Below are positions 44,654-64,000 of a DNA stretch of 64,000 nucleotides, one piece after another. Under the pieces are notes generated by a model. The model ran no database searches. It was not told where the DNA came from and worked only from the letters and a program-made list of their open reading frames with translations. The position numbers were made by a program, and so were the translations under genes. Numbering within the stretch: the stretch's first letter is position 1; every line of letters begins with the position of its first letter. This DNA is from Marinobacter algicola DG893 (lineage in GTDB: Bacteria > Pseudomonadota > Gammaproteobacteria > Pseudomonadales > Oleiphilaceae), in assembly GCF_000170835.1 (NCBI RefSeq), contig NZ_ABCP01000011.1, positions 1-64,000 on the forward strand. The letters run 5' to 3'.

Positions 44654-45826
44654 TTACTTTCCGGGTACTCTGACCCAACCTTCCATCAGCACGCGCGCGC
44701 TTCTGCTCATAATCGCCTTTTCCACTACCCACTCCCCGTTTGACTCTCTGGCTTCGGCACCCACTCTCAGAGTGCCGGAAGGGTGGCCAAAACGCACCGA
44801 CGTTTGGTTTCCACCCCCAGCAGCAGTATTTACTATAGTTCCCGGAATAGCGTGAGCAGCGCCGATGGCAACCGCAACAGTGCCAGGCATTGCATGGTGG
44901 AGCTTGCCCATTGAAAGGCCCCGCACCAAGAGGTCCACATCGTCGATGGTAATCCGTTTTCCGCTGGCTGCAACATAGTCCGAGGGCCCGGCGACAAATG
45001 CAATCTTAGGGGTATGCTGTCGGTTCTCCGCCTCCGCAAGCGTTTCCACCAGCCCCATCTGCAGCGCACCGTGACCACGGATAGATTCAAACATCGCCAG
45101 AGCTTGTGGATCATTGTTAATAGCGTCCTGAAGCTCTGTGCCGGTATAGCCGACCGCGTCAGCCTCGACAAAAATAGTCGGAATACCAGCAGTGATCATG
45201 GTCACCCGAAACTTGCCGAGCCCTGGAACGTCCAGCTCGTCGACTGGGTTTCCCGTCGGAAAAATGGCACCCTCATCACCGGCGGGATCCAGAAACTCCA
45301 GTGCAATCTTCGCCGCAGGAAACGCGACACCGTCCAGTTCGAAATCCCCGGTTTCCTGAACCTGGCCATCGGTCATCGGTACTCGGGCGATGATCGTTTT
45401 ACCGATATTAGCCTGCCAGATGCGGACGGCTGCTACGCTGTTCTGCTCGAGAGTGTCAGCAGCGACAAGCCCGGCGCTGATGGCAAACGCACCTACCGCG
45501 GTAGTCAGGTTGCCGCAGTTACCGCTCCAGTCCACAAAGGCGCGATCAATACCGACTTGTCCAAATAAATAATCGACATCGTGGTCTGGCCGCTCGCTCC
45601 TGGAGACAATGACGGTTTTACTGGTGCTGGAGGTGCCATTTCCCAGACCATCAATTTGCTTCTGGTAAGGGTCGGGGCTTCCTATCACCCTCATCAACAA
45701 GGAATCACGAATGGGGCCTGGAGTCTGGGCGCCCTCAGGAAGGTCTTCAAGACGAAAAAACACGCCTTTGCTGGTGCCGCCACGCATATAAGTAGCAGGA
45801 ATCCGAATCTGGGGTACGTTGGACAT
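44654..45826 (-). CDS. PrpF/4-oxalomesaconate-tautomerase family isomerase
   Basis: 390-residue protein of the diaminopimelate-epimerase-like fold. The N-terminal YMRGGTSKGVFF is the PrpF signature; GNGTSSTSKTVIV, DWSGNCGNLTTAVG and TAAGGGNQTSVRFGH follow. PrpF itself moves the double bond of 2-methylaconitate in propionate breakdown; relatives isomerise 4-oxalomesaconate in gallate or protocatechuate pathways. There is no acnD, prpC or prpB here, so a role in an aromatic- or tricarboxylate-acid pathway is at least as likely. It is divergent from the stress-protein/permease operon, with palindromes between them. Confidence 0.85.
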   Translation of the reverse strand: MSNVPQIRIPATYMRGGTSKGVFFRLEDLPEGAQTPGPIRDSLLMRVIGSPDPYQKQIDGLGNGTSSTSKTVIVSRSERPDHDVDYLFGQVGIDRAFVDWSGNCGNLTTAVGAFAISAGLVAADTLEQNSVAAVRIWQANIGKTIIARVPMTDGQVQETGDFELDGVAFPAAKIALEFLDPAGDEGAIFPTGNPVDELDVPGLGKFRVTMITAGIPTIFVEADAVGYTGTELQDAINNDPQALAMFESIRGHGALQMGLVETLAEAENRQHTPKIAFVAGPSDYVAASGKRITIDDVDLLVRGLSMGKLHHAMPGTVAVAIGAAHAIPGTIVNTAAGGGNQTSVRFGHPSGTLRVGAEARESNGEWVVEKAIMSRSARVLMEGWVRVPGK

Positions 45827-45922
45827 AGGAAATCTCGCTATTCAGTGCTCGAAAACGGTTTGAAGACTTCAAAATACAACCAAAGCCGTAGTTGTCAACA
45901 AACCTCAACCCTCGGTTGACTC

Positions 45923-45959
45923 ATTCCTTATAAAGGAATACCGTTTCACTATAAGGGAT
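45923..45959. promoter_or_regulatory. Palindromes in the prpF/usp divergent promoter
   Basis: ATTCCTT-ATA-AAGGAAT (45923-45939) is a palindrome with perfect 7-base arms. Immediately after it, ACCGTTTCACTATAAGG (45940-45956) resembles the conserved operator at 48429 and 51244 with a one-base insertion. Both lie between the divergent starts. Confidence 0.5.
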
Positions 45960-46022
45960 GAAGTAGCAGCAACCAACATCTTTCAACGGGGTGTTTTTAT
46001 CTCTACCTGCGAGGATCATGGC

Positions 46023-46502
46023 ATGATTCCAGATATCAAAACCATTCTCTACGCTTCGGACCTGCAGGGGGCAACCTGGCCCTCAATGCGGCTCGCCTTC
46101 TCAATTGCCCAGCAATACAATGCGACACTGATCTACGCCCACGTCGTGAACAACGTAAAAGAGCTCAGGGATACCATCAAAGACTTTGAGATCAACAGTC
46201 GCATCGATATCCAGGAGATTCTCAAGCAGACACTGGAAAAGGCTGAGTCACGGATGAAAAGCAACGTGGAAAAGTTCGTGGCAGAGGAGTTTTCTGAATC
46301 AGGCTCTCCGGTTGAAGTCGATATCCGGGTTTTGGAGGGCTATCCGTCGCAGACACTTCTTTCTGTGGCGGAGAAGGAGCACGTTGACCTGATCGTAATG
46401 AGCAGCCGGAGTCATGGCACCTTTGGCCAGGTCCTGGGCTCTACGACGAACAAAGTGATGCACAACGGCAAGTTCCCGGTTCTGGTGATTCCCTATCACT
46501 GA
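46023..46502 (+). CDS. Universal stress protein family (UspA-like)
   Basis: 159-residue single-domain Usp protein. It begins IKTILYASDLQGATWPSMRLAF; the C-terminal nucleotide-binding block is VDLIVMSSRSHGTFGQVLGSTTNKVM, close to the G-2x-G-9x-G(S/T) ATP-binding pattern. It is first in an operon with a two-part permease. Usp proteins are often found with TRAP or other organic-acid transporters in marine bacteria, where they may sense nucleotides to tune uptake. Confidence 0.88.
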   Translation: MIPDIKTILYASDLQGATWPSMRLAFSIAQQYNATLIYAHVVNNVKELRDTIKDFEINSRIDIQEILKQTLEKAESRMKSNVEKFVAEEFSESGSPVEVDIRVLEGYPSQTLLSVAEKEHVDLIVMSSRSHGTFGQVLGSTTNKVMHNGKFPVLVIPYH

Positions 46503-46562
46503 ACGACAGGCCCGGCGCATCCAAACGCCACTTGATCTCTTGAAGGTAAGTCTGACTATCTG

Positions 46563-47099
46563 ATGTCCGTTATCGCTTATATCAAGCGGGAATTGCTCGA
46601 TCGCAGCACTCTCTTCTTTACCGCACTGGCATTGTGTTCTGGCCTTGCTCTGTGGTGGCTCAGAGGGGAAGAAGCGTTTCGTGTCGCAGCCTACAGCAGC
46701 GGCATGTTGGTGCTGATGATTGCACCAATCATTCTGATTGCGATGGTCATAAGCTGTTACGTGCGGAAACTGCTGCCCACGAAGCATGTTGAGCGCTGGC
46801 TTGGCTCGGAAAGCGGCCTCCGCGGGCTGGCCGTTGCCATGCTGGGCGGCATGGTGACACCGGGCGGCCCCTTTGCTGCGTTTCCGCTGGTTGTCGGTTT
46901 TTATCGCGCCGGCGCTTCGTTCGAAATCTGCGTAGCGTACCTGACCTCCTGGACCGTGTTGGGGCTGAACCGTGTGCTTATCTGGGAACTGCCTTTTCTG
47001 GGTTTTGATTTCGTGCTGCTACGCCTGCTGATCTCCCTGCCATTGCCGATCATTGCCTGGATGCTCGCTAAACTCTTAACAAGACAACGCAATGCTTAG
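46563..47099 (+). CDS. Permease half A (UPF0718/ArsP-like)
   Basis: 178-residue membrane protein with about four to five helices. The central motif GGMVTPGGPFAAFPLVVGFYRAG resembles the (T/L)PGGP-xx-A-FP motif of the predicted permease family that includes ArsP. Its stop overlaps the start of the next gene, which carries the same motif, so the two likely assemble as a pair. The substrate is unknown; position beside a Usp protein and PrpF suggests an organic acid rather than arsenic. Confidence 0.65.
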   Translation: MSVIAYIKRELLDRSTLFFTALALCSGLALWWLRGEEAFRVAAYSSGMLVLMIAPIILIAMVISCYVRKLLPTKHVERWLGSESGLRGLAVAMLGGMVTPGGPFAAFPLVVGFYRAGASFEICVAYLTSWTVLGLNRVLIWELPFLGFDFVLLRLLISLPLPIIAWMLAKLLTRQRNA

Positions 47100-47586
47100 T
47101 GCCTATATAACCCTGATCATCGTCCTGGTTGGTTTGGCGCTGGTTGCCCAGCGCAAACCAGAGGTATCACACAAAGAAGTGATGTCCCAGGCCGTCGACA
47201 ACACCTTACCTTTGCTGTTCCGCATACCGGCGGCCATTCTCGCTGGCAGCTTTCTCGCTGAGCTGATCCCACGAGAGCACATCATTGCATTGTTGGGGGA
47301 GGCGTCGGGCCTGGCAGGTATCCTTCTGGCTTCTGTTCTCGGTGGTTTTCTTCCGGGGGGCCCCATGATCGCCTTCCCGCTCCTTCTGGCGATGTTCAAA
47401 GCCGGAATGGGTACTCCCCAGTTGATCGCCCTGCTTACCGGATGGTTACTGCTCGCATTCCACCGCATAGTTGCGTACGAGCTACCCATGCTTGGCACCG
47501 AGTTTGTCAGACATCGACTGCTGGTCTGCCTTCCGTTACCCGTGATCGCCGGCGTTGCGGCGCAAAGCGTTGGAAAATGGTTATAG
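47092..47586 (+). CDS. Permease half B (UPF0718/ArsP-like)
   Basis: 164-residue membrane protein with about four to five helices and the motif LGGFLPGGPMIAFPLLLAMFKAG, parallel to that in half A. It begins eight bases before the end of half A. The two proteins share the order hydrophobic segment, LPGGP or TPGGP motif, and a W/L-x-L-x-FHR or LNR-xxxxELP segment, suggesting an ancient duplication or a split two-domain permease. It is convergent with the SDR gene. Confidence 0.65.
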   Translation: MLSAYITLIIVLVGLALVAQRKPEVSHKEVMSQAVDNTLPLLFRIPAAILAGSFLAELIPREHIIALLGEASGLAGILLASVLGGFLPGGPMIAFPLLLAMFKAGMGTPQLIALLTGWLLLAFHRIVAYELPMLGTEFVRHRLLVCLPLPVIAGVAAQSVGKWL

Positions 47587-47600
47587 ACCTTCCGAGACCA

Positions 47601-48359
47601 TTACGATTGCTTGCTGCCCGGCATCATCGCTGAGACGCCTCCGTCGACAAACAGATCAGTTCCGGCAATAAAATCGGAGTCGTCAGAGGCCAGAAACAGG
47701 ATCGCCTTTGCAAGGTCCGCAGGCACACCGGGACGACCACGCAAGTTGGAAACCGGGCGAGTCGGGTCAAAGTCATCTTTGCCAACCGGCGAACCGATCT
47801 TGTTAGGCACAACGCTGTTTACCCGGATATTGTGTGGCGCGAGCTGAATCGCCATCGAGCGGGTCAGGTTGATCACCCCCCCTTTTGCAGCCGTATACGC
47901 AATGGCCCGGTCCCGGCCGTAGTAACCCGATGTCGAGCTGACGTTGATGATCCTACCGTCTGCCGCATGTTGAACCATCGCCTGGGCCGCGTATTTACCA
48001 AACAGGAAAGGCGCCGTCAGCGTGATCGCAAGGGTGCGGTTCCACTCTTCGGCGGTAATATCAAAAATATGCTTGTTGTCGGACATGGCAACGTTGTTCA
48101 CCAGGATATCCAGACCGCCCAACTGGTCGACGACCGCTGCGACGGTTGCTCGGATCTGGTCTTCGCTCGCCACGTCACAGATAAACGGTTTCGCCTGACC
48201 GCCGGAAGCAACGATATCGGCGGCTACTTTCTCCGCCCTTGATCGATCAAGATCCACCACCGCAATGGTGGCGCCTTCGGCGGACAGCACACGCGATACC
48301 TCTTCACCGATGTTGCGACCCGCGCCTGTGACTATGGCCACCTTACCTGACAGCTTCAT
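47601..48359 (-). CDS. Short-chain dehydrogenase/reductase (SDR) 1
   Basis: 252-residue classical SDR. Cofactor motif TGAGRNIG (11-18), acidic VVDLDR suggesting NAD(H), NNVAMS where NNAG is usual, catalytic Ser in NVSSTSGYYG, YTAAK for Tyr-x-x-x-Lys, and a C-terminal FVDGGVS. The substrate is unknown. It is transcribed leftward from a promoter carrying the conserved operator, divergent from the EamA transporter. Confidence 0.9.
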   Translation of the reverse strand: MKLSGKVAIVTGAGRNIGEEVSRVLSAEGATIAVVDLDRSRAEKVAADIVASGGQAKPFICDVASEDQIRATVAAVVDQLGGLDILVNNVAMSDNKHIFDITAEEWNRTLAITLTAPFLFGKYAAQAMVQHAADGRIINVSSTSGYYGRDRAIAYTAAKGGVINLTRSMAIQLAPHNIRVNSVVPNKIGSPVGKDDFDPTRPVSNLRGRPGVPADLAKAILFLASDDSDFIAGTDLFVDGGVSAMMPGSKQS

Positions 48360-48428: not shown

Positions 48429-48453
48429 TACACCGTTCCACATAAGAGAACAA
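48429..48453. promoter_or_regulatory. Conserved 25-bp operator, copy 1 (SDR1/EamA divergent promoter)
   Basis: TACACCGTTCC-A-CATAA-G-AGAACAA at 48429-48453, an imperfect palindrome with GTTC and GAAC half-sites (48435-48451). It matches the site at 51244-51268 in 23 of 25 bases. It sits 70 bases from the SDR1 start and 83 from the EamA start. Confidence 0.7.
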
Positions 48454-48535: not shown

Positions 48536-49495
48536 GTGATTGGAGCTTTATTTGCGTTTCTAAGTGCCTGTCTGCAGGGCGTGAACAGCGCCTGTCTCCG
48601 ACGTGGCGTACTGACCGGTAGCGCGTCTCAAGCCATGGCCATCACGGTGCCGATGGGCGTACCGCTGGCACTTCTGGCCGCCTGGCTCACAGGCCAGCTC
48701 TACCAGATGGATGAACTCTCCCGACAGGGCGCTCTGTTTCTGGCGGGCTCCGGCATTCTTCAATACGCCTGGGCCCGCTACTGGAACTACCGGGCGGTCG
48801 CTGCTTTGGGTTCTGTAGGTGCCGGCCCCGTTCAGCAGCTTCAGATGTGGATTGCCGTGGTGCTTGCGGTGGTGCTGCTTGATGAGACCCTCACCGTGCC
48901 CAAACTGCTTGGCATGTGCCTGGTGTTCATTTCCCCACTGATCATCGCAGTCAGCATAAAACGGCGAAACGCCCGACATGCGCAAATGGATCAAGCCGAT
49001 TCGGATGAAGATCGGCGAGCAAGCGCCGCCCTGTTCAGGCCCAAAATTCTGATTGGATACGGCTGTGCGATTATTGCTGCGATTTCCTATGGTTCGAGCC
49101 CCATCCTGATTCGATCCGGCCTTGAAGGAACCAACCTTGGCATTCTGGGAGGCCTGATCGCCTACTCCGCCGCCACCATGACATTTATACTCTTCTCATG
49201 CCTGGCACCCGGACAAATCCGGCACATCCGCCAGACCGACCGCAAATCCGTGCCCTGGTACGCCATGGCCGGTGTGCTGGTTTACTGCGGGCAGGCGCTG
49301 TATTTCATGGCCTTCAGCCTTGCGCCGGTCACTGTCGTGGCCCCCATTCACCAGTTTTCCCTGGTGGCTCGGGTCTGCGCCGGTTATTTCATCAATCGCG
49401 ATCACGAGGTGCTGACACCCACCGTTATTATGGCGGTTCTGCTGTCTTTCGCGGGCACCGTCATTCTTGCGGTCGATTGGCAATCGACGGGCTAG
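48536..49495 (+). CDS. EamA/DMT-family transporter
   Basis: 319-residue inner-membrane protein with ten predicted helices in two EamA repeats of five, divided by a charged loop (KRRNARHAQMDQADSDEDRR near residue 145). The family often exports metabolites or imports amino acids and organic acids; the direction here is unknown. GTG 48536 is the start; no nearby ATG fits the first helix. It is divergent from SDR1 under a conserved operator, so it belongs to the accessory regulon. Confidence 0.85.
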   Translation: MIGALFAFLSACLQGVNSACLRRGVLTGSASQAMAITVPMGVPLALLAAWLTGQLYQMDELSRQGALFLAGSGILQYAWARYWNYRAVAALGSVGAGPVQQLQMWIAVVLAVVLLDETLTVPKLLGMCLVFISPLIIAVSIKRRNARHAQMDQADSDEDRRASAALFRPKILIGYGCAIIAAISYGSSPILIRSGLEGTNLGILGGLIAYSAATMTFILFSCLAPGQIRHIRQTDRKSVPWYAMAGVLVYCGQALYFMAFSLAPVTVVAPIHQFSLVARVCAGYFINRDHEVLTPTVIMAVLLSFAGTVILAVDWQSTG

Positions 49496-49503: not shown

Positions 49504-50271
49504 CTAATGCATACAGGATCCACCATCCACCACCAGCGTCTGGCCGGTAATAAAATCGCTGTCCGATGACGAAAAGAACACCACAGCACCGAGCATATCC
49601 CCTGGCATTTGCAGGCGCGGGATTGCCCTCGTCGAGGCCGCAGAAGCGCGCCTCTGCCGGATTGCATCGTCCGGATTTTCTTCACTCATGGTGCTGCCCG
49701 GCGCAATGCAGTTAACGCAGACGCCTTCTTTTCCCAGTTCATTGGCGAGCGTCTTGGTAAACCCGAGAATGGCGGCTTTTGAGGCGACATAATGAATGCG
49801 GTTGTCAGCCCCCTTGAGGGCCGTACCCGAGCTGATATTAATGATTTTGCCGTACTGCTGATCGCGCATATAGGGTGCCACAGCGCAGGAAGACAACCAG
49901 GCACCTTTGACATTCACCGCCATCATGCGATCCCACTCTTCAGGATCAATCTCATCAAACGGCGCCCGAGACATGGGAACCGAAATAAAGATCGCGGCAT
50001 TGTTAACCAGAATGTCGATGCGACCGAATTTTTCAGCCGCAAGCCTCGCCATCTCTTTAACGCTGTCCGGTTTTGTCACATCGGTGTGCACCGCCAGCGC
50101 CTCAAACCCTTCCTTTTCGAGTTCCTCTGCAGCGGATGTCGCCGCTTTGACATCGATCTCTGCAATCACAACACTTGCGCCTTCTTCGGCCAGACGTCTC
50201 GCATAGGCCCTGCCAATGCCGTGACCTCCGCCCGTCACAATGGCCACTCGGCCCTTCAATCTTGAACTCAT
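49504..50271 (-). CDS. Short-chain dehydrogenase/reductase (SDR) 2
   Basis: 255-residue classical SDR with TGGGHGIG (13-20), VIAEID (acidic, NAD-type), NNAAIF, NISSGTALKG and Tyr-Lys in YVASKAA, and a C-terminal TLVVDGG. It follows the TauD-type gene by 45 bases on the same strand and is likely co-transcribed with it. The substrate is unknown; an alcohol or hydroxyacid produced by the dioxygenase is a reasonable guess. Confidence 0.9.
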   Translation of the reverse strand: MSSRLKGRVAIVTGGGHGIGRAYARRLAEEGASVVIAEIDVKAATSAAEELEKEGFEALAVHTDVTKPDSVKEMARLAAEKFGRIDILVNNAAIFISVPMSRAPFDEIDPEEWDRMMAVNVKGAWLSSCAVAPYMRDQQYGKIINISSGTALKGADNRIHYVASKAAILGFTKTLANELGKEGVCVNCIAPGSTMSEENPDDAIRQRRASAASTRAIPRLQMPGDMLGAVVFFSSSDSDFITGQTLVVDGGSCMH

Positions 50272-50316: not shown

Positions 50317-51144
50317 TCAGGCTATGGGCGCGACGGTATCCCCTACCGTGACTCGCTTGAGCAGCCTGCGCTCGTTTTCATTGAAATCGTTTCGGGCATG
50401 AAGCACACAGCGGTTGTCCCAGATCAGCGTGTCGCCCAGGCGCCAGCTGTGTTCATAGATAAACTCGGGGCGCTCACAGTGATCGAAGAGTTCGGCAAGC
50501 AGCGCTTCGCTCTCCGCCTCGGGCAGTTCCAGTATCCGGTCCGTCATCAGGCGGCAGACGTAGAGCGCTTTTTTGCCGGTCTCGGGGATAGTCCGGACCA
50601 CCGGATGAACCGCTGAGGGTGAGTCTTTCGTTAGCTGTTTGTTGGCAGCGTTGGTTTGGCCGTATTGGTAGGTATTGAGTGCCGTGAGTCCCTCAAGTTT
50701 TCGCTTGGTTTCCTCGGGCAGCGCCTCGTAGGCCTGACACATGCTCGAAAAACGGGTTTCGCCGCCTTTGGAGGGTAATTCGATGGAATGCAGCACCCCA
50801 GCTTTGTTGGGTACTTTCTGGTGAATGCGGTCAAAATGCCAGAACAGCTCACCGTCCGGCAACGCGCCAAGTGCGGCTTCGCCCTCGCGAATGTTGGAGA
50901 TCACCATGATTTCTGGCCGCGTGGCCAACGGGCTCATTTTGCGGGCGTTTTCGATCGAACCGAACGACTGCGCAAACTCAACCAGTTCGTCTTCCGTGAC
51001 GCTGTGATCCCGGATGACCAACACGTGGTGCTTCAACCAGAGCTCGTTGAGCTCCTGCGCGTGCGCGTCATCAATATGCGTCAAATCCACGCCCCTGACC
51101 TCGGCTCCGAGTGCCGGTGAAAGAGGCAATGTCTGATAGGTCAT
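50317..51144 (-). CDS. TauD/TfdA-family 2-oxoglutarate-dependent dioxygenase
   Basis: 275-residue non-haem Fe(II) dioxygenase. The iron triad is visible: His103 and Asp105 in FWHFDRIH, distal His249 in VLHARNDF, with Arg260/Arg264 (ENERRLLKR) for 2-oxoglutarate. The N-terminus ALGAEVRGVDLTHID is typical. Members hydroxylate taurine, 2,4-D, carnitine-like and many other small acids; the substrate here is unknown. The promoter has the second copy of the conserved operator about 100 bases upstream of the start. SDR2 follows. Confidence 0.9.
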   Translation of the reverse strand: MTYQTLPLSPALGAEVRGVDLTHIDDAHAQELNELWLKHHVLVIRDHSVTEDELVEFAQSFGSIENARKMSPLATRPEIMVISNIREGEAALGALPDGELFWHFDRIHQKVPNKAGVLHSIELPSKGGETRFSSMCQAYEALPEETKRKLEGLTALNTYQYGQTNAANKQLTKDSPSAVHPVVRTIPETGKKALYVCRLMTDRILELPEAESEALLAELFDHCERPEFIYEHSWRLGDTLIWDNRCVLHARNDFNENERRLLKRVTVGDTVAPIA

Positions 51145-51243: not shown

Positions 51244-51268
51244 TACACCGTTCCGCATAACAGAACAA
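51244..51268. promoter_or_regulatory. Conserved 25-bp operator, copy 2 (TauD promoter)
   Basis: TACACCGTTCC-G-CATAA-C-AGAACAA at 51244-51268, with GTTC/GAAC half-sites at 51250-51266. It differs from copy 1 at only two positions. It lies about 100 bases upstream of the TauD-type start and just beyond the end of the LysR gene. Confidence 0.7.
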
Positions 51269-53517: not shown

Positions 53518-53537
53518 TTCCCGACACGAGGTAAGGT

Positions 53538-54644: not shown

Positions 54645-54686
54645 CGCCAGGACCGCCTTCGCAACCCGAATCAAGGACAACCGCCG

Positions 54687-55792: not shown

Positions 55793-56478
55793 TCCCGGAG
55801 CTGATTCAAAACATCGTCAAGCGCCATCACGTCCGCATACTTGTGATGCAGATCGAACAGGCTGGCCTGGTGGGAAATAGGGTTGCGGTCAAACACGGCT
55901 TCTTCAACCAGCACCGTGTGAAAGCCATAGGAAAAACTGTCGGTCGCCGTGGCACGAACGCAGCCGCTGGTGCTTTCACCAACCATGATCAGCGTCTCGA
56001 TACGAAGACGCTGCAGATAGGTCGCCAGTGGTGTGCCATAGAAACAGCTGGCGCGTTCCTTGGCGATCACCAACTCACCATTTTCGGGCGTCAGCTCCGG
56101 GTGAATGTCGTAGGCGTTTTCAGAGGCCTGGCCCGATCGCCGAAAGGTCGCGCTGGCCTTACGCTGGTGGTCAGCATTGCGAAGATCTTTGGTCGAGAAG
56201 AGCACCGGCAGACCCTGTAAACGCATTTCATGCAGGATCTGCCGGGTTGGCCCCAGGGCCCGCCAGGCGAATTCACCGCAGGAACTCGGGTAATCTCGAT
56301 AAAGCTCACTCACCGGGCGCTCACCACCCTCATAACAGAGGTTGTAAAGATCGACCAGGAGCAGGCCGCAGCGGCCTTTGATACCCTTTTGCCGTCGGTA
56401 GGGTGCGTACAGGTCGTAAATTTCCTGTGGGTACAGGTCCTGCCAACAGTGGTTCTCAAAGTCATGATGCTCGGCCAT
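55780..56478 (-). CDS. Isochorismatase-family cysteine hydrolase 1
   Basis: 232 residues with the Asp-Lys-Cys triad: Asp43 in LLLVDLYNL, Lys140 in VIAKERASCF and Cys173 in GESTSGCVRATATDS. The C-x-R-A-T context resembles N-carbamoylsarcosine amidase and maleamate amidohydrolase more than isochorismatase itself, so amide or carbamoyl hydrolysis is the likely chemistry. It has no signal peptide. It is divergent from the first Bug-type binding protein and paralogous to hydrolase 2 (both share ASCF-x-x-TPL). Confidence 0.87.
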   Translation of the reverse strand: MAEHHDFENHCWQDLYPQEIYDLYAPYRRQKGIKGRCGLLLVDLYNLCYEGGERPVSELYRDYPSSCGEFAWRALGPTRQILHEMRLQGLPVLFSTKDLRNADHQRKASATFRRSGQASENAYDIHPELTPENGELVIAKERASCFYGTPLATYLQRLRIETLIMVGESTSGCVRATATDSFSYGFHTVLVEEAVFDRNPISHQASLFDLHHKYADVMALDDVLNQLRDKTR

Positions 56479-56573: not shown

Positions 56574-57602
56574 ATGAAAATAACTCCCTCGAACCTTGCC
56601 AGCATCGCGATCGGGTGCCTGCTTTCAATGGGCGTCATGGCCCAGGACAGCAGCGCAGAATCCTTTTATGAGGGTCGGACGGTTGAGCTAATGGTCGGTT
56701 TCTCCCCCGGTGGCGGTTACGACACCTATGCCCGCACACTTGCCCGACACCTGCCCAAACATTTTCCCGGCAACCCGAATGTGGTTGTCCGGAATGTTCC
56801 CGGGGCCGGCTCATTGGTTCTGATGAACCAGATCGCCAATTCCCTGCCCAAAGACGGCTCGGTGTTTGCGCTGGTCAATTCGGGAATTCCGTTCGAGCCC
56901 CTGTTCGGCAACAAACAGGCGAAGTTCGACACTCAGGAGGTCAACTGGGTTGGCAGTCTTGCAGACGATACGGTGCTGGGAATTGCCAATGCCGACAGCG
57001 GCATAGAACACTTGCTGGATCTGCGTGAGAAGAGCATGACCATGGGTGGCTCAGGCGCAGGCTCCAGCACCAATTTCATGCCCAGAGTTCTGGCAGAGCT
57101 GTTCGATCTCAATCTGACGGTTATCGCAGGTTACCCGGGCTCTACCGACATCGTACTCGCCATGGAGCGGGGTGAAGTCGACGGCATAGGGGGCCAGTTC
57201 ATGAGCACGATTATGACCCGCACCCCGGAGTGGCTGGCCGAAGACCGCAAAGTAAACCACATCTATCAATTATCCATGAAGAAACACGAGCTATTGCCCG
57301 ACGTGGATCTTGTCCGTGACATGGCCGAAACAGAAGACCAGCGTCAAGCAGTAGATCTGCTGGCTGCCAGCCTGATGTTCGCGCGCCCATTTGTGGCGCC
57401 TCCCGGCATAGATCCCGAGCGCCTGGACATTCTGCGCACGGCGATGGAACAGACGGCAAAAGACCCGGAATTTCTGGCTGACGCCGAGCGCCAGAGCTTG
57501 CCGGTCAATTTTGGTTCCGGGGAAGAGATGCACGCATTCTTTGCAAAAATCGAACAGACGCCCCCTCACGTTGTTGAGATCGTCGTGTCAGCGAAGAATT
57601 GA
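56574..57602 (+). CDS. Bug/TctC-family periplasmic solute-binding protein 1
   Basis: 342 residues from ATG 56574, with a signal peptide ending near SMGVMAQ. Typical Bug features are MVGFSPGGGYDTYARTLARHLPKHFPGNP and VVRNVPGAGSLVLMNQIAN in the N-terminal lobe and MERGEVDGIGGQF in the second. Bug proteins bind carboxylates or amides, often through two water molecules, and usually serve tripartite tricarboxylate (TctAB) transporters; none is in this window. It is divergent from hydrolase 1. Confidence 0.92.
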   Translation: MKITPSNLASIAIGCLLSMGVMAQDSSAESFYEGRTVELMVGFSPGGGYDTYARTLARHLPKHFPGNPNVVVRNVPGAGSLVLMNQIANSLPKDGSVFALVNSGIPFEPLFGNKQAKFDTQEVNWVGSLADDTVLGIANADSGIEHLLDLREKSMTMGGSGAGSSTNFMPRVLAELFDLNLTVIAGYPGSTDIVLAMERGEVDGIGGQFMSTIMTRTPEWLAEDRKVNHIYQLSMKKHELLPDVDLVRDMAETEDQRQAVDLLAASLMFARPFVAPPGIDPERLDILRTAMEQTAKDPEFLADAERQSLPVNFGSGEEMHAFFAKIEQTPPHVVEIVVSAKN

Positions 57603-57627
57603 TCAAATATTCGGCAAGGACATGACC

Positions 57628-58614
57628 ATGGCAGTACCGCTTAATCTGAGTCTCGCCATTGAACGTTACGATCGACACTTCCCGTTCTTCGACAACACCC
57701 TGCAACTGCCGGAGGGCCTGAACCTAACGGTTTACCAGACCGGTCAGTCTGCCCCACTGCGCGACGGCAAGGGTCGCCATGAACGCATGCTGCACGGCGG
57801 TGATTACGACGTGGCCGAGTTTTCTTTATCTACCTTTCTTATGGCCCGCGCCCGTGGCATGCCCATCGTCGGCATTCCCGTGTTTCCGCGACGCCTGTTC
57901 AGCTTCAGTCAGATGTGGGTGCATCCAGATTCGGACTTACACCAGCCTCGGGACCTGATTGGCAAGAAGGTCGCTATTTCTTCCTTTCAGACCACGCTGT
58001 CGCTGCTTGCCAAAGGGGATCTGAAATTTCAGTACGACACGCCCTGGGAACACATTCACTGGCTGCTTACCACACAGGAAAAAGTCCCGTTCGATTTCAA
58101 GCCCGGCGTCCGGGTGGACTATATCGGCGGTAGTCGGGAAGACGTGGCACAGAAACTGGCGAATCATGAAATCGACGCCTTTTTCCTGCCCCACCCGCCG
58201 CACTCGGTCGTTTCCGGTAAACTACCGGCGCGGCGCCTAATAAGCGACTGCCGGGCCGCAGAGATCGATTATTTCCGCCGTGTCGGTGACTTTCCGATCA
58301 TGCACGTGATTGCCCTCCGGCAGGAGCTGGCTCAACAGGAACCGTGGCTGGGCCGCGCACTTTACGATCTGTTCAATCAGGCCAATTCACTGGCCGAGGA
58401 ATATTACGAAGACCCCGGTTGGTCCCGACTGGCCTGGGGACGTCATTACTACGAGCAGGAAAAGGCCCTGTTCGGCAGCGATCCATGGGAGAACGGTTTT
58501 CGACGAAACCGGGCAAATCTCGAGCGCTTCATCCAATACTCCCAGGATCAGGGAATGATCGATTCGATCTACCCTCCGGAAGAACTCTTTGTGGACGACA
58601 CACTGAACACCTGA
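57628..58614 (+). CDS. Pht5-like (4,5-dihydroxyphthalate decarboxylase-like) substrate-binding-fold protein
   Basis: About 328 residues. ATG 57628 has AAGGA at 7 bases; the ATG at 57622 is too close. No signal peptide. The start LSLAIERYDRHFPFFDNTLQLPEGLNLTVY, then YDVAEFSLSTFLMARARGMPIVGIPVFPRRLFSFSQMWV, matches proteins annotated 4,5-dihydroxyphthalate decarboxylase, which have a periplasmic-binding fold but lie in the cytoplasm. Decarboxylase activity for the whole family is not secure. It follows Bug 1 by 25 bases. Confidence 0.78.
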   Translation: MAVPLNLSLAIERYDRHFPFFDNTLQLPEGLNLTVYQTGQSAPLRDGKGRHERMLHGGDYDVAEFSLSTFLMARARGMPIVGIPVFPRRLFSFSQMWVHPDSDLHQPRDLIGKKVAISSFQTTLSLLAKGDLKFQYDTPWEHIHWLLTTQEKVPFDFKPGVRVDYIGGSREDVAQKLANHEIDAFFLPHPPHSVVSGKLPARRLISDCRAAEIDYFRRVGDFPIMHVIALRQELAQQEPWLGRALYDLFNQANSLAEEYYEDPGWSRLAWGRHYYEQEKALFGSDPWENGFRRNRANLERFIQYSQDQGMIDSIYPPEELFVDDTLNT

Positions 58615-58688: not shown

Positions 58689-59666
58689 ATGAAGTTAAAC
58701 CAGACACGCCCCATTGGCCTCGGTTGCATGAACCTGTCTCACGCCTATGGCAAGCCTTCTTCGCCTGAGCAGGCAAGTAAACTCCTGAATCTGGCCCTTG
58801 ATCTTGGCTACAATCATTTTGATACTGCAGCGTTTTATGGCCTGGGCACCAATGAACAATTGATTGGCGATGCGGTTGCCCATCGGCGCAACGAATATTT
58901 TCTGGCCAGCAAGTGTGTGTTGGTGCCGGACGAAAATGGCAAACGCTCACTGGATGGCCGTCCGGAACGCATCCGCCAAACCTGCGAACAAGCTCTCCGG
59001 CGCTTAAAAACAGACTTTATCGACCTGTATTACTTGCACCGGTACGATAAAAAAGTTCCGCTGGAAGACAGCGTTGGCGCAATGGCTGAGCTGGTCGCTG
59101 CCGGAAAGATTGGCGCTATCGGGTTGTCGGAAGTTTCGGCGGATACGCTTCGACGGGCTAACGCCGTGCACCCCATAAGTGCGGTACAGACAGAATACTC
59201 GTTGTGGACGCGCAATGCGGACATAGCGGTTATGGATACTTGCGCAGAACTGGGCGCCAGTGTTGTTGCCTTCAGTCCCCTCGGGCGGGGGTATTTAACC
59301 GGCACCCTGACGGATGTCACTCGCCTGGCCGACAGCGATATTCGCCGCAAAATGCCACGTTTCTCTGAAGACAATTACGCCAAGAACCTCTTATTGCTTG
59401 AGCCATTGAAACAGGTTGCCAATAACCACAATGTCTCAATGGCTGAAGTCGCTCTGGCTTGGGTCCTACAACGGGCCGAGCATATTGTGGCCATTCCCGG
59501 CACCTCGTCCGAGACCCACCTCAAAACCAACTTTGAGGCTCAATCAATCCGGCTTTCAAAGGCGGAATGGCAGCTTTTGAACGACGCCATTAACGATCAA
59601 AAGGTCCATGGCGCACGCTACAGCGAAGCGGCCCAGGCGGATGTCGATACCGAACAATTCGCCTGA
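58689..59666 (+). CDS. Aldo-keto reductase
   Basis: 325-residue NADPH-dependent carbonyl reductase of the (beta/alpha)8 type. The catalytic tetrad is Asp45 and Tyr50 in FDTAAFYG, Lys75 in LASKC and His117 in YYLHRYD. A C-terminal cofactor segment IPGTSSETHLKTNF is present. It fits the AKR12/13-like bacterial group. The substrate is unknown; a ketone or aldehyde intermediate of the local pathway is likely. It ends at a GC-rich hairpin shared with convergent Bug 2. Confidence 0.9.
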   Translation: MKLNQTRPIGLGCMNLSHAYGKPSSPEQASKLLNLALDLGYNHFDTAAFYGLGTNEQLIGDAVAHRRNEYFLASKCVLVPDENGKRSLDGRPERIRQTCEQALRRLKTDFIDLYYLHRYDKKVPLEDSVGAMAELVAAGKIGAIGLSEVSADTLRRANAVHPISAVQTEYSLWTRNADIAVMDTCAELGASVVAFSPLGRGYLTGTLTDVTRLADSDIRRKMPRFSEDNYAKNLLLLEPLKQVANNHNVSMAEVALAWVLQRAEHIVAIPGTSSETHLKTNFEAQSIRLSKAEWQLLNDAINDQKVHGARYSEAAQADVDTEQFA

Positions 59667-59709: not shown

Positions 59710-60732
59710 TTACATAGCGCTTTTCACCACCTCAATGACTTCTTCCGGGTACTCATAGGTTTCAACAACAATGGCCTGAGCCTCTTCACCGGTCACAAAA
59801 TCAATGCTCAGACTCTGATTCGCCGCATCCTCAAGAAACTCGGGATCCATGGCTGTTGCGGCCAGCGCTTTGCGCATGATGGCCACCCGCTCTTGGGGCA
59901 CTCCCGGAGACATGACGTAGGGGCGAGCAATCAACTGCCGGGCCAGGAACAGCCTCAAGACCTTTGTTTGCTTGTCCGTTTCCGCAAAGTCCATGACTAA
60001 AGGCACATCCGGCAGATCCGGGTGTTTTTCCAGCGCCATCTGAAAAAGCACATTCACCTCACGATTTTCAATCCAGCCGGGCCTCTGGGTTCTGGCGCTG
60101 CTCAGCAACCAGCTGCAACGCCCCTCTACTTCACCACGCTCCATCGCCAGCAGGATGTCGTTGCCGCCCGGGTACCCGGTAATAATGTTGAATTTGAAAT
60201 CGAAAAGCTCAGCCATCACCCTCGGGTAGATGTTGGTGCTGGCACCGGCGCCGGAAGCACCCACCGTCAGCGCCTTGGTCTTGAGATCCTGCCAGGTCTG
60301 CACGTCTGCGTCCTTGTTGGAAACGCAGAGGCTGGTGCCTTTGGACAGACTGCCCAGCCAGACGATATCAGCGGCTTTGTACTGTGCCTGATCATTGCCA
60401 AACAACGGCTCAAAGGCCATCCCCTGATTGACCGTTGCAAAGACGGTCCCGTCGTTGGGAAGTGTATTCGCCACCTGATTCATCAGCACAAGGCTGCCGG
60501 CCCCGGTGACGTTTCTGGGCACCACATCCGGATTACCCGGGATGTGCTTGCCGATATGTCGGGCAAGGGTTCGGGCGTAGGTGTCATAGCCCCCACCCGG
60601 AGAATGTCCGATTAGCAGATCAATGGTTTTACCGGCGTAGAAATCATCGGAGTTACTGGTTTGTCCGACAGCGGCGGCCGACCAGCAAGAGATGGCCATG
60701 ACAAGCGCCAGGAAATGTATCGTTGCTCGCAT
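59710..60732 (-). CDS. Bug/TctC-family periplasmic solute-binding protein 2
   Basis: 340 residues from ATG 60732, chosen because AAGGA is 8 bases upstream and the signal peptide (MRATIHFLALVMAISCWSAA) follows at once. LIGHSPGGGYDTYARTLARHIGKHIPGNP and VTGAGSLVLMNQVAN parallel Bug 1. Ligand-pocket residues differ (MAFEPLFGNDQ; GRCSWLLSS), suggesting a different ligand. Last gene of a leftward operon with Bug 3 and hydrolase 2. Confidence 0.92.
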   Translation of the reverse strand: MRATIHFLALVMAISCWSAAAVGQTSNSDDFYAGKTIDLLIGHSPGGGYDTYARTLARHIGKHIPGNPDVVPRNVTGAGSLVLMNQVANTLPNDGTVFATVNQGMAFEPLFGNDQAQYKAADIVWLGSLSKGTSLCVSNKDADVQTWQDLKTKALTVGASGAGASTNIYPRVMAELFDFKFNIITGYPGGNDILLAMERGEVEGRCSWLLSSARTQRPGWIENREVNVLFQMALEKHPDLPDVPLVMDFAETDKQTKVLRLFLARQLIARPYVMSPGVPQERVAIMRKALAATAMDPEFLEDAANQSLSIDFVTGEEAQAIVVETYEYPEEVIEVVKSAM

Positions 60733-60788
60733 GTTGTTATCCTTATTCATAGCATCAGTATTTTGTTGACAGCCTCTGATCATTCAAA

Positions 60789-61493
60789 CTAATCGGAAAC
60801 GCGTGACACACAGAGCGCTTCAAGCTCTGTCAGGGAAACAACAGACGCGTACTTGGCGCTAATGTCGAATAAATTGGCGCAATGGGCAAAGTGAGAGCGA
60901 TCAAAGCAGCAATCGTCAACCAGATAGGTTGTGTATCCGTGGGAGCACGCATCTACCACCGAAGCCCGCACGCAGCCGGATGTCGAGACGCCACAGACGA
61001 CCACTGTGTCGACTTTCCGCATCTGGAAATAGGAGTTCAACGGCGTCGCAAAAAAACAACTGGCTTTGGCTTTCTCCAGTACCCATTCACTCTCGAGAGG
61101 GTCGATTCCGGGCGGGAATTTCTGACCTTCGGGCGGCGATGGCCTGGACCTCACACGCTTGGTCGCGCCCCCCGCAAATACCTGATCAAGGCTGTCATTG
61201 CGGGTAAACACAACGGGCCAGTTTCGGTCGCGGAACAGCTGCAGCAACTGGGCGATCCGCGGCAACGCTTCCCAGGCCACCTCACCGCACGCGGTGGGAA
61301 ACTCTCGGATCGCGTCTGCCACAGGCTGGGGTCGGGAGCCGGTAAACGACAGTGTTACATCGATGACTATCAATGCCGGACGTTCACCAAACGGCTGTCG
61401 TTCTCCGAATCCAGATTGCAGGTAGAGCGCCCGTTCAGTTTCGGGCACTACCCTCATCCAATCTTTCTCCGACCACCCATCCTGTTCAGCCAA
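60789..61493 (-). CDS. Isochorismatase-family cysteine hydrolase 2
   Basis: 234 residues. Catalytic triad Asp45 (LIVIDVTLSF), Lys141 (VLEKAKASCF) and Cys174 (GVSTSGCVRASVVDA). It is paralogous to hydrolase 1, with a different loop (AGGATKRVRSRPSPPEGQ) near the active site. Likely an amidase or carbamoyl hydrolase. It lies between two Bug genes on the same strand, 57 and 31 bases apart. Confidence 0.88.
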   Translation of the reverse strand: MAEQDGWSEKDWMRVVPETERALYLQSGFGERQPFGERPALIVIDVTLSFTGSRPQPVADAIREFPTACGEVAWEALPRIAQLLQLFRDRNWPVVFTRNDSLDQVFAGGATKRVRSRPSPPEGQKFPPGIDPLESEWVLEKAKASCFFATPLNSYFQMRKVDTVVVCGVSTSGCVRASVVDACSHGYTTYLVDDCCFDRSHFAHCANLFDISAKYASVVSLTELEALCVSRVSD

Positions 61494-61523: not shown

Positions 61524-62564
61524 TTATTGCATCGCCTCATTCAGAAGCTGCACTATATGCTCGGGGTAACCGTAGACTTCTCCGAAAAACGTCTGCATTT
61601 CCTGGCCATCTACGAAGTCTATACTCAACCCCTGGTTGTTGGCATCAGCAAGAAACTCGGGATCCGCAGCCGTCTGTTCAAGCGCATTGCGCAGAGTCGC
61701 CAGACGCTCAGGAGCCATGCCCGGAGGCGCCACATATGGACGACCCATGATCAGTCGTGCGCCAAGAAGGTCAACGACCCGCCTCTGGTCGTCAGTTGTC
61801 GCCATTTCGCTAACCAGCGGAACATCTGGCAGATCCGGGTGGCGCTTGCGCCCTAGCTGGAAAACGATATTCACATCTCCGTCTGGCTCTAGCCAGTCCG
61901 GATTCTTGGCCTTGATCGTACTCAGGAATGCGCTCCCCATGCCATCGACTTCACCCCGCTCCATGGCCAGGCCAACGTCATTGCTGCCAGGATAGCCGCT
62001 GATGACGGTCATTTTCAGATCAAACAGTTCTGCCAGAACACGGGGAATCGTATTGGTGTTGGATCCGGCGCCGGTGGCCCCCACCGTCGCTTGCTTCGTT
62101 TTCAGATCCTGCCACTTAGTGATACCCGACTCTTTACGAAATAAGCCAACCGATGTAACCACACTCAGGTTTCCGAGCCAGCTCACCTCGTTGACATCGA
62201 ACTTGGCCTGCTCATTACCAAACAGTGGCTCGAAGGGCATTCCGGAGTTGACGGCACCGAGGACGGTGCCGTCATTCGGCAATGTGTTCGCAATTTGATT
62301 CATCAGAACCAGAGAGCCGGCCCCCGGGACATTCTTGACCACCACATTCGGGTTACCCGGAATGTGTTTACCCAGATGGCGCGCCAATGTGCGGCCATAA
62401 GCGTCGTAACCTCCGCCCGCAGAGTAACCAATCATGAGTTGAACAGTGCGGCCATTGTAGAACTCCGCTTCACTCTGTTCACTGGCTACAACCGGTCCAG
62501 AAGATAATGCGGTGTATGCGATGACAGTCAATGCCAGCAGGAACGATAAGCTCAACATTCTCAT
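61524..62564 (-). CDS. Bug/TctC-family periplasmic solute-binding protein 3
   Basis: 346 residues from ATG 62564 (AAGGTAA about 9 bases upstream), with signal peptide MRMLSLSFLLALTVIAYTALSSG. Bug signatures are MIGYSAGGGYDAYGRTLARHLGKHIPGNP and NVPGAGSLVLMNQIAN. It is closest to Bug 1 in FEPLFGNxQAKFD and MERGEVDGMGSAF. First gene of the Bug 3 - hydrolase 2 - Bug 2 operon, with the cupin gene 121 bases upstream. Confidence 0.92.
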   Translation of the reverse strand: MRMLSLSFLLALTVIAYTALSSGPVVASEQSEAEFYNGRTVQLMIGYSAGGGYDAYGRTLARHLGKHIPGNPNVVVKNVPGAGSLVLMNQIANTLPNDGTVLGAVNSGMPFEPLFGNEQAKFDVNEVSWLGNLSVVTSVGLFRKESGITKWQDLKTKQATVGATGAGSNTNTIPRVLAELFDLKMTVISGYPGSNDVGLAMERGEVDGMGSAFLSTIKAKNPDWLEPDGDVNIVFQLGRKRHPDLPDVPLVSEMATTDDQRRVVDLLGARLIMGRPYVAPPGMAPERLATLRNALEQTAADPEFLADANNQGLSIDFVDGQEMQTFFGEVYGYPEHIVQLLNEAMQ

Positions 62565-62652
62565 CTCAATGATTACCTTTTCGTTGTTTTGTTTAGAAAT
62601 AATCACCCCTAGTAAACAGGGATCTGAGGAGCTTGGATAATGAAGAATTGGC

Positions 62653-62670
62653 GTTTTCAAATAACAGAAA
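62653..62670. promoter_or_regulatory. Weak operator-like sequence upstream of Bug 3
   Basis: GTTTTCAAATAACAGAAA (62653-62670) shares ATAACAGAA with operator copy 2 and a GTT at the corresponding left end with one extra base. The left half-site is poor. Confidence 0.25.
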
Positions 62671-62685
62671 GGAATTTATGTCTAT

Positions 62686-63246
62686 TCAGGTTCGCTCTGG
62701 TGAAGAAACAGGATCTTCTGAGATTTGCTCGGGCTTGAACCGACGGCGCGGCACCTGGCTTAAATCTGTACTCAAAAATCTCAATACAAGAGCAGGTTCT
62801 GGCGTCGGAACCCGGGTTGAATGAATATCGCCGGGCAGGTACGCAACGGTATCACCACCCTTGAGCCGATCGATACGATCTACCCGCAAGGTGTTGCTGG
62901 TAGCATCGTATGCGTAAACCGGAATTTCCGCTTCACCTTCATAGACGCCATATACGACCCAATAGGGCCCATGATCATGAGGCGTATTGGTGCGATAGCC
63001 GGCGTGATAGTGGTTCATTTGAATGAACCCGTGGTCCGGGTGTGTATAGAGAGGGAAGCCCGATGATTTTTCGGCTTTCAGGTTGCGCACCCATGCGGTG
63101 TCAGGCGTTGTGGAGCGCAGCCATTCACTCATCAGCTCACTCACGCGATGCGCTGTGTCCGTGTCTTTGGCGCTTTGCGGTTGCCACAGGTCATTGATAG
63201 CAGAGATGTACTGCCGGAAAGCAATGTCGTTTGCTGGCTTGTTCAC
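62686..63246 (-). CDS. Cupin-fold protein
   Basis: About 186 residues from GTG 63246, which has a perfect AGGAGG 8 bases upstream; the ATG at 63276 has none. A cupin metal site is suggested by PHDHGPYWVVYGVYEGEAEIPVYAY and a later His in GDIHSTRVP. The overall pattern recalls cysteine-dioxygenase-like cupins, but the family is not certain. It has no signal peptide. It follows a PcaB-like lyase by about 50 bases and is probably in the same operon; it could be a dioxygenase, an isomerase or a lyase. Confidence 0.72.
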   Translation of the reverse strand: MNKPANDIAFRQYISAINDLWQPQSAKDTDTAHRVSELMSEWLRSTTPDTAWVRNLKAEKSSGFPLYTHPDHGFIQMNHYHAGYRTNTPHDHGPYWVVYGVYEGEAEIPVYAYDATSNTLRVDRIDRLKGGDTVAYLPGDIHSTRVPTPEPALVLRFLSTDLSQVPRRRFKPEQISEDPVSSPERT

Positions 63247-63298
63247 GTTCTTGACCTCCTGGAATCCCAACCCCATTGCTTCTACTCGAACGTTGAGC

Positions 63299-64000
63299 CT
63301 ACCCCATCTTTATCAGACGCTCTGCGCTCTCCAGCACTTCATCGGTCCACGCCTTGGTCGCGCCGCCGTCAAGCAATCCATGCCGGATGCTCTGAATCTC
63401 GAGCTGGTGCCCGGTCAAAGCTTTCAGCACTTCAAATAAGTGCTGCCCTGTCCCGGCGACCTTTTCGCAGGCCTCGGCAACATAACGTGACGCGTCTTCT
63501 CGGGACATGTGTGCCGCCAATGCAAAGGTCGCTGCCTCGGCATAGATCAGGCCATGACTCTTGGCAATGTTGGTCTCAACGTTCTCGGCGGATATTTCCA
63601 GAGACTCAAGCCCTTCAAGGCAATGGCGCAGACTGACGGCTGTACCCATCAACATTTGCGGTAGCAGCAACCACTCCTGCGTCCATGCATAGCCACTGCG
63701 CTCGTGCTCATGCAACATGCATTGCTGCATCTGCCCTGCCAGACCGGCATTCTGGCGGGCCATGGTCACCATGATTTCAGCGTTCACCGGATTACACTTC
63801 TGCGGCATGGTGGACGAGCCACCCCCGTTGCTGAACCGCAACTCACCGACTTCTGTCTGCGCCATGCGCAGCCAGTCTTCCGCCATCTTTCCAAGGATGC
63901 CCGTCGTCATCGCCAGCCAACCGGAAAACTCCACCAGGCTATCCCGCTGGGCATGCCAGCTGGGGGCGTTCTGAAGACTCAGGCGATCAGCCAGGTTTTT
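63299..64000 (-). CDS. PcaB/adenylosuccinate lyase-superfamily enzyme (C-terminal part, runs off the right edge)
   Basis: About 233 residues of the C-terminal half. It begins in the window with LADRLSLQNAPSWHAQRDSLVEFSGWLA, typical of 3-carboxy-cis,cis-muconate cycloisomerase. The superfamily signature GSSTMPQKCNPVNAE carries the catalytic serine loop. The C-terminal helical domain has the AHMSREDASRYV segment. Members either lactonise carboxymuconate or split C-N bonds in argininosuccinate-like molecules; the N-terminal half needed to decide is outside. With pcaF debris nearby a PcaB role is possible, but the gene context is not a pca operon. Confidence 0.82.
   Translation of the reverse strand, partial: KNLADRLSLQNAPSWHAQRDSLVEFSGWLAMTTGILGKMAEDWLRMAQTEVGELRFSNGGGSSTMPQKCNPVNAEIMVTMARQNAGLAGQMQQCMLHEHERSGYAWTQEWLLLPQMLMGTAVSLRHCLEGLESLEISAENVETNIAKSHGLIYAEAATFALAAHMSREDASRYVAEACEKVAGTGQHLFEVLKALTGHQLEIQSIRHGLLDGGATKAWTDEVLESAERLIKMG

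Follow-up and report, generated by a model that had tools for sequence, protein, structure and literature searches.

The first 64,000 nucleotides of contig NZ_ABCP01000011.1 of Marinobacter algicola DG893 (the window) end in a cluster of catabolic and uptake genes at positions 44,654–64,000. Here, we show that the window contains the left portion of a catabolic region that spans at least 54 kb and is missing at this place from eight sampled congeners, and that the core of this region is no random assortment. This core comprises an ornithine cyclodeaminase-family protein (OCD1), a Pht5-like protein (Pht5L), a bicupin and an isochorismatase-fold hydrolase (HydA), and the gene-neighbourhood comparison suggested by an earlier note on this DNA found that its families co-occur and cluster in other genomes. 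We are far more certain that these four belong together than of anything regarding their substrate, where we lean, with the case for and against about evenly balanced, to a regulon for aromatic, probably nitrogen-bearing, carboxylates feeding protocatechuate cleavage.

Every gene family named in the earlier note was recovered at its position by open reading frames (ORFs), Pfam, NCBIfam and a structure model. The core genes that lie within the window, together with the two genes in tandem with OCD1 (52381–55763, + strand) and an adjacent Bug gene, are:

52381–53517, + strand: OCD1, ornithine cyclodeaminase/mu-crystallin family (PF02423, 125 bits)
53538–54644, + strand: OCD2 (PF02423, 119 bits)
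54687–55763, + strand: OCD3 (PF02423, 120 bits)
55780–56478, − strand: HydA, isochorismatase-fold hydrolase with D43, K140 and C173 (Pfam; PDB 26st and 1nba)
about 56574–57602, + strand: Bug1, TctC family (PF03401)
about 57622–58614, + strand: Pht5L, Pht5-like protein (PDB 9jp7, E value 9.3e-40)

Scanning the contigs of 84,980 genomes, one per species, we obtained 233 OCD1-related stretches and kept the 80 best, whose labels are mostly those of alphaproteobacterial metagenome-assembled genomes (MAGs), with some Gammaproteobacteria and some Chloroflexi (L101 and L104 are labelled SAR202). For a genome-wide comparison we chose 40 of these 80 loci ourselves, mostly the longer ones, in 38 genomes (for Pht5L; one locus per genome for bicupin and HydA), and set them against 149 control genomes drawn from the window's own phylum with the source genome excluded; three of the 38 case records are labelled Chloroflexi/Dehalococcoidia and one Deltaproteobacteria. 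Pht5L was found in all 38 OCD1 genomes (30 at 280 bits or more) compared with six of the 149 controls (best 162 bits), bicupin in 37 compared with none, and HydA in 29 (28 at 190 bits or more) compared with six (best 96 bits). Fisher P is below 1e-19 for each of the three, subject to the bias of comparing MAGs with complete genomes.

The same families also lie close to OCD1. Within 10 kb of it in the 80 loci, Bug proteins occur in 33, Pht5L in 30, bicupin in 12, EutA, TctA and short-chain dehydrogenases/reductases (SDRs) in 10 each, the small cupin in four and HydA in three. At least one of Pht5L, bicupin, Bug, EutA and HydA is present in 61 loci, and seven of the ten EutA-bearing loci hold a bicupin as well. 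As ORF calls in G+C-rich MAGs are rough, these neighbour and ORF-based counts can miss genes. Compared with random placement in 38 loci, the count for Pht5L is 11 where 2.0 would be expected, a value reached in none of 200,000 simulations; bicupin gives 6 against 1.8 (P 0.007) and HydA 3 against 0.57 (P 0.019).

A sample of 37 genomes from the genus agrees with this picture. OCD1 is present at 459 bits or more in three of them (G000, G007 and G024) and is accompanied by Pht5L in two (G000 and G024), compared with none of the other 34 (chance 0.0045); in G007, two HydA-like stretches and a thiamine pyrophosphate (TPP) enzyme fall inside the same 17 kb as OCD1. The OCD1 of strain BSs20148, a further culturable holder, shares 90% identity with the one described here. 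The families can also be multiplied, with up to 24 relatives of Pht5L per genome. Bicupins number 17 to 32 and Pht5L relatives 9 to 15 in L092 (Chloroflexi), L101 (SAR202) and L103 (Dehalococcoidia), whose genomes measure 2.1–2.8 Mb (17 and 9 in L101, 32 and 13 in L092).

Beyond gene company, a palindrome of the type GTTCC-N7-GGAAC recurs upstream of genes in this and other loci. In the window, GTTCCRCATAANAGAAC is present at 48435, in the gap between SDR1 and EamA, and at 51250, before TauD. A longer motif, TACACCGTTCC(A/G)CATAA, occurs at 48429 and 51244, where 0.09 matches would be expected at three mismatches or fewer; of the shared operator-like sites claimed in the earlier note, this one pair is real. 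At one mismatch or fewer to GTTCCRYATANNRGAAC, the genome has seven sites (a reversed control pattern gives none), and six of these fall in three loci that carry the toolkit described here, namely this region and two further ones, C53 and C97. The sites stand 74–112 bp before SDR, EamA, TauD, Rieske, cupin, EutA and dehydrogenase genes in these three loci. All seven are:

48435–48451: GTTCCACATAAGAGAAC, operator-like palindrome between SDR1 and EamA
51250–51266: GTTCCGCATAACAGAAC, operator-like palindrome 106 bp before TauD
C94:75143: palindrome 112 bp before the Rieske gene
C97:2702: palindrome 78 bp before the cupin pair
C97:8807: palindrome 74 bp upstream of the alcohol dehydrogenase gene preceding LigK
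C53:2917: palindrome 77 bp before EutA
G000:C50:3885–3901: palindrome with one mismatch, between a permease gene and an acyl-CoA dehydrogenase read as glutaryl-CoA dehydrogenase

We built a symmetrised matrix from six genome sites and applied an 11-bit cut of our own choice. In the 300 bp upstream of OCD1 across the 80 loci it gives six matches compared with 0.76 expected from the rest of the same loci, located in L071, L095 (twice; labelled Acidobacteria), L067, L074 and L076. The neighbourhoods of L071 and L095 look alike, so their matches are not independent. Among the matches inspected, one in L074 precedes a molybdenum-hydroxylase-family gene and one in L076 precedes an EamA gene 53% identical to a C53 EamA, while in L067 the site stands 70 bp upstream of a cupin pair that is 72% identical to the C97 pair, where the distance is 78 bp. 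The palindrome is thus kept across classes, including before OCD1 and a cupin pair in Alphaproteobacteria. Its shared upstream positions make it a likely control site (operator), for which the IclR protein encoded beside the Rieske gene (L004:15650–16531) is a candidate reader; because it precedes SDR1/EamA, TauD, the Rieske gene and genes of two other loci, the separated pieces look co-regulated.

The window belongs to a 100,321-base contig in a 4.4 Mb Marinobacter genome, on which we annotated ORFs up to position 98,000. Its right end cuts the locus, whose gene set runs at least 34 kb further, and two features mark the left edge:

43192–43268, + strand: tRNA-Arg(CCG) (ARAGORN), about the last feature common with congeners and the left edge of the variable region
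44102–44500, + strand: pcaF-like 3-oxoadipyl-CoA thiolase remnant, immediately to the right of the tRNA (132 residues, with a TIGR02430 match over 93)

We compared eight congener flanks of about 18–20 kb each with the contig (blastn, E value 1e-5) and with 47 query proteins from it (tblastn, E value 1e-20). In all eight, the left match stops between 43058 and 43440, in or close to the tRNA-Arg, and to the right of this point the rest of the contig and its 47 query proteins are unmatched in these flanks, bearing out the earlier description of the region as accessory. Two of the eight, G007 and G024, carry relatives of OCD1 and HydA at other places in their genomes. No further copy of the tRNA-Arg was found on the contig with exact words of at least 14, and in one congener a second partial match to the tRNA lies 10.7 kb further along. 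We rejected a plasmid origin, as the DNA of 52381–58614 matches none of 72,556 plasmids; matches at the protein level are limited to Pht5L relatives below 60% identity (194 records).

The first genes past 64,000 are PcaB, PcaG, PcaH, a fused PcaDC, a hydrolase (under the YghX cut-off), a TPP enzyme and a 3-hydroxyisobutyrate-dehydrogenase-like gene, followed by a second half-permease pair, a class II aldolase, a Rieske oxygenase, an IclR regulator and a reductase. Further right come three bicupins, EutA-family genes, two more Bug proteins, a second TauD and a TctA-like ORF. Curated models assign the pca genes to protocatechuate cleavage: full-length PcaB scores 359.6 bits with TIGR02426 (cut-off 355.75), while staying under two other PcaB models (NF004631, 361 versus 371; NF006554, 350 versus 595), and PcaG (233 bits, cut-off 126), PcaH (337, cut-off 296) and PcaDC (430, cut-off 390) pass theirs. 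An intact PcaF thiolase was not found in the part of the contig read, which has the remnant only (136–139 bits versus pcaF cut-offs of 597–605); no search for it was made elsewhere in the genome. The best PDB match of the Rieske oxygenase is 9ina/9ioy (487 bits). A passage of PMC12445078 gives 9INA as deposited as isophthalate dioxygenase, and the known pathways, as excerpted from PMC13040137, lead from isophthalate through a dihydrodiol to protocatechuate. The closest chemistry that can be identified, protocatechuate cleavage together with an isophthalate-dioxygenase-like Rieske enzyme, lies mostly outside the window.

The two additional toolkit loci bring the total in this genome to three. 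C53 holds a Bug protein, bicupin, EutA, TctA, TctC, a Pht5-like gene, EamA genes and a TPP enzyme. C97 holds a cupin pair, LigK (equivalog), an Amidohydro_2 protein, an alcohol dehydrogenase (by ORF reading), a Pht5-like gene and LysR, and further on an isochorismatase-fold hydrolase, a Bug protein and TauD.

OCD1–3 retain the dinucleotide motif; in an alignment, OCD3 has a Ser in the RxKSD stretch where OCD1 and OCD2 have a Lys, and OCD1 takes 335 residues for 286 profile positions and so carries extra segments. We tried the OCDs as tyramine-oxidase-subunit-B-like and as ectoine EutC-like proteins and dropped both, their scores being far below the cut-offs. The Lys and Cys of HydA align with those of PDB 26st and of 1nba, N-carbamoylsarcosine amidohydrolase, a second hydrolase (HydB) aligns with HydA, and the Asp is at the expected place in both. 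HydA and HydB thus have the Asp-Lys-Cys set of isochorismatase-fold cysteine amidohydrolases, presumably their catalytic triad, and both fall short of the RutB and biuret hydrolase equivalogs (at most 51 versus 378). In M. denitrificans, HyuA/HyuB-like genes (by ORF reading) adjoin OCD1, which would suggest hydantoin as a substrate type and is compatible with HydA; the window has none.

Pht5L is a distant homologue of 4,5-dihydroxyphthalate decarboxylase (PDB 9jp7, 140 bits) and does not match the NCBIfam equivalog of that name. On plasmid pAtK84c of Rhizobium rhizogenes K84 (L151), a Pht5L relative (38%) is annotated as a taurine-transport periplasmic component and adjoins a gene annotated as ribulose-5-phosphate 4-epimerase, with an IclR gene close by. 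Pht5L-type genes may often be misnamed as transport proteins.

Put together, these families suggest the following route. Outside the membrane, the close paralogues Bug1–4 would bind the acid, and TctA or the split half permeases would carry it in. HydA and HydB would hydrolyse an amide or N-carbamoyl group, and OCD1–3 would interconvert imine and amino acid; the substrate probably contains nitrogen, as judged solely from membership in the OCD and N-carbamoyl-type hydrolase families. The ring would be dihydroxylated by the isophthalate-dioxygenase-like Rieske enzyme with a reductase and made aromatic again by an SDR, after which loss of a carboxylate through Pht5L would give protocatechuate, for PcaGH, PcaB and PcaDC to cleave and convert to 3-oxoadipate. 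Control would lie with the IclR protein, reading the palindrome as its operator.

Several results weigh against this proposal. The cases in the genome-wide comparison are mostly environmental MAGs and the controls mostly complete genomes, and lifestyle may inflate the contrast; the genus sample is small, and G007 has OCD1 without Pht5L. None of the three OCDs reaches an NCBIfam cut-off, the best scores to the equivalogs for ornithine cyclodeaminase, alanine dehydrogenase, BhcD, EutC and SbnB being 129 (OCD1), 107 (OCD2) and 146 (OCD3) versus 417. No dihydrodiol dehydrogenase of the known isophthalate or phthalate pathways was recognised on reading the ORFs, with no model search made for such an enzyme. 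In the window, no site within one mismatch precedes OCD1, HydA, Bug1 or Pht5L; the site matrix gives 39 further matches in the other 1.2 Mb of the loci, few of them inspected; and no relative of the IclR gene occurs in the 80 OCD1 loci, including those that bear the site. Finally, within 10 kb of OCD1, pcaB, pcaG, pcaH, PrpF and the aldo-keto reductase occur in none of the 80 loci, PcaDC in one and the Rieske gene in two. What ties the core to protocatechuate is therefore position and a shared site rather than conserved gene company. With TauD, EamA and the half permeases near OCD1 in one or two of 80 loci, the idea in the earlier note that the 19 kb form one route does not hold.

The same absences, to which the FdR gene can be added, lend substance to the explanation that survives best after the proposed regulon, one we nevertheless judge unlikely: that the region is a collecting point where unrelated catabolic operons piled up by a tRNA gene, the real unit being the OCD–Pht5L–Bug core only. 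The pcaF remnant at the left edge and the absence of the region from this place in all eight congener flanks would be expected under it, but the palindrome common to SDR1/EamA, TauD, the Rieske gene and genes of the two other loci looks like co-regulation.

Less probable still is an isophthalate or phthalate pathway alone, with the OCD and hydrolase genes serving something else. Such a pathway would account for the PDB neighbours of the Rieske enzyme, the kinship of Pht5L with 4,5-dihydroxyphthalate decarboxylase and the presence of protocatechuate genes. It would lack the dihydrodiol dehydrogenase that ORF reading, with no model search, did not recognise for either pathway, and Pht5L relatives at up to 24 per genome are hard to square with one xenobiotic; moreover, 30 of 80 loci have Pht5L near OCD1, and two have a Rieske relative there.

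We regard as similarly improbable a route for N-heteroaromatic carboxylates (nicotinate-like), in which a molybdenum hydroxylase would be followed by Pht5L as decarboxylase and a maleamate-type amidase. HydA and HydB match PDB 3ot4, which we take to be maleamate amidase, and the molybdopterin hydroxylase family is found near OCD1 in seven of 80 loci, beside Pht5L and Bug genes on a Roseomonas plasmid and, in L074, behind the palindrome. Neither a molybdenum hydroxylase nor a ring-opening pyridine dioxygenase was seen in the stretches read, however, the rest of the genome not having been searched, and a Chloroflexi neighbour (c22) considered as NicX (2,5-dihydroxypyridine dioxygenase) was dropped for want of any Pfam or PDB match, which counts against this route.

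Sulfur-bearing acids handled by part of the suite, with the small cupin as thiol dioxygenase and TauD as sulfonate dioxygenase, are a very improbable explanation: the cupin is predicted to have a thiol-dioxygenase (cysteine-dioxygenase) fold (Foldseek 4tlf, template modelling score about 0.7) with three invariant, putatively metal-binding His in the alignment (H100, H102 and H152) and a profile match to mercaptosuccinate dioxygenase (8vni), and cysteine-dioxygenase-like neighbours (c10) occur in six of 80 loci, but TauD is far below the taurine-dioxygenase equivalog (183.7 versus 313 bits) and no sulfite or sulfur genes were noticed among the ORFs read.

Returning to the palindrome-controlled regulon for aromatic carboxylates, a wider version of it can be offered only tentatively, and we would sooner doubt than accept it. 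In this version the OCD, Pht5-like, HydA, bicupin, EutA and Bug families would form an undescribed system found in SAR202-type Chloroflexi as well as in Gammaproteobacteria and Alphaproteobacteria. In natural waters this system would open a major class of aromatic acids that contain nitrogen, with bicupin and the EutA-type ATPase as the two halves of a new ring-opening enzyme. The bicupin fold resembles gentisate/salicylate dioxygenases and oxalate decarboxylase equally and does not separate these functions; among NCBIfam models it is weakly similar to 5-aminosalicylate dioxygenase, and its second cupin carries the invariant histidines 260, 262, 319 and 321. Two proteins have a full-length EutA domain (PF06277, 395 and 392 bits). 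EutA-family ATPase genes adjoin bicupin genes at L027:4464–12006 and L005:1540–4614, and eutBC were not recognised in the stretches with EutA genes, where no model search was made for them. One EutA copy, at L027:5729–7237, is split over two ORFs (an N-terminal and a C-terminal part) and may therefore be a broken gene. A cobalt-type ABC transporter with CbiM/CbiQ/CbiO-type genes by ORF reading lies inside the region at L027:393–3181, and cobalt import adjoining EutA-like genes may hint at a cobalamin enzyme.

A literature search, mainly of openly licensed papers, gave no description of the combination, in line with the earlier note, and the known systems each share only part of it. With iphA2CBA1 of Comamonas testosteroni the region has in common a Rieske enzyme of the same family, a reductase gene nearby, Bug-type binding proteins (IphC presumably being a Bug protein) and protocatechuate as the meeting point; it differs in having no recognised IphB-type dehydrogenase and in its extra OCD, hydrolase, Pht5-like, bicupin and EutA genes. 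The phthalate 4,5-dioxygenase (pht) pathway likewise has a Pht5 homologue and a phthalate-dioxygenase-type Rieske gene within one region, whereas Pht5L is distant from 9jp7, lies about 15 kb from the Rieske gene and is seldom found with one (two of 80 OCD1 loci). The protocatechuate branch of the beta-ketoadipate pathway (pcaGHBDC) is represented by PcaG, PcaH, PcaB and a fused PcaDC that each meet a curated model, while PcaF is a remnant in the contig part read. OCD1–3 share a Pfam family and the dinucleotide motif with ornithine cyclodeaminase, pyrroline-2-carboxylate reductase and BhcD, yet are far under every NCBIfam equivalog, with extra segments in OCD1. In paper abstracts, SAR202 bacteria are regarded as likely oxidisers of recalcitrant dissolved organic matter, and passages of PMC6946804 describe families multiplied in SAR202 that are thought to act on such matter. 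The families named in those passages are enolases, FMN oxygenases and Rieske enzymes, and a term search of the paper for cupin, isochorismatase, cyclodeaminase and NMT1 found none of the four.

What was a list of gene families thus becomes a defined unit that can be tested: the co-occurrence of its core has been measured, and it comes with candidates for operator and regulator and a short substrate list. Identifying what one culturable Marinobacter locus consumes would open a way into chemistry that is at present only guessed at in uncultured bacteria.

The remaining genes of positions 44,654–64,000 include two passengers and, besides a Usp gene also within the window, several that the earlier note did not name (PrpF, the half-permease pair, the EamA transporter and the LysR regulator):

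44654–45826, − strand: PrpF, 2-methylaconitate isomerase family, a passenger, absent from all 80 OCD1 loci (TIGR02334, 686.6 bits, cut-off 440.55)
46563–47586, + strand: pair of split ArsP_1-like half permeases (46563–47099 and 47092–47586; Pfam, the second below cut-off)
47601–48359, − strand: SDR1 (Pfam)
48536–49495, + strand: EamA-type transporter (Pfam)
49504–50271, − strand: SDR2 (Pfam)
50317–51144, − strand: TauD-family dioxygenase (PF02668, 240.8 bits)
51318–52217, − strand: LysR-family regulator (Pfam)
58689–59666, + strand: aldo-keto reductase, a passenger, absent from all 80 OCD1 loci (PF00248)
59710–60744, − strand: Bug2 (PF03401, 25.3 bits, slightly below the cut-off of 27; 51–55% identical to Bug1 and Bug3)
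60789–61493, − strand: HydB, isochorismatase-fold hydrolase with D45, K141 and C174 (Pfam)
61524–62567, − strand: Bug3 (PF03401)
62686–63276, − strand: small cupin with a predicted thiol-dioxygenase fold (no Pfam match; model predicted local distance difference test score, pLDDT, 92)
63299–64000, − strand: PcaB, cut at the window edge (complete at L004:3299–4744, with PcaG, PcaH and PcaDC next, outside the window)

We also tried the PrpF-family gene as a 4-oxalomesaconate tautomerase and rejected it (269 versus a cut-off of 440), the PrpF model having been passed.

Among the transport genes, Bug1–4 and the Bug proteins of C53 and C97 are 47–62% identical where compared. TctA and TctB were not recognised in 44–64 kb, and a TctA ORF (by ORF reading) adjoins Bug5 at L027:18924–19997. 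The second ArsP_1-like half-permease pair, at L004:10859–11997, is on the strand opposite to that of the window pair, and the A halves are 42% identical. In L083 a single row holds OCD1, both half permeases, a Bug gene, a TPP enzyme, TctA and an OCD3-like stretch, with the half-permease pair between OCD1 and a Bug gene; such a pair may be a split carrier that serves Bug proteins without TctAB.

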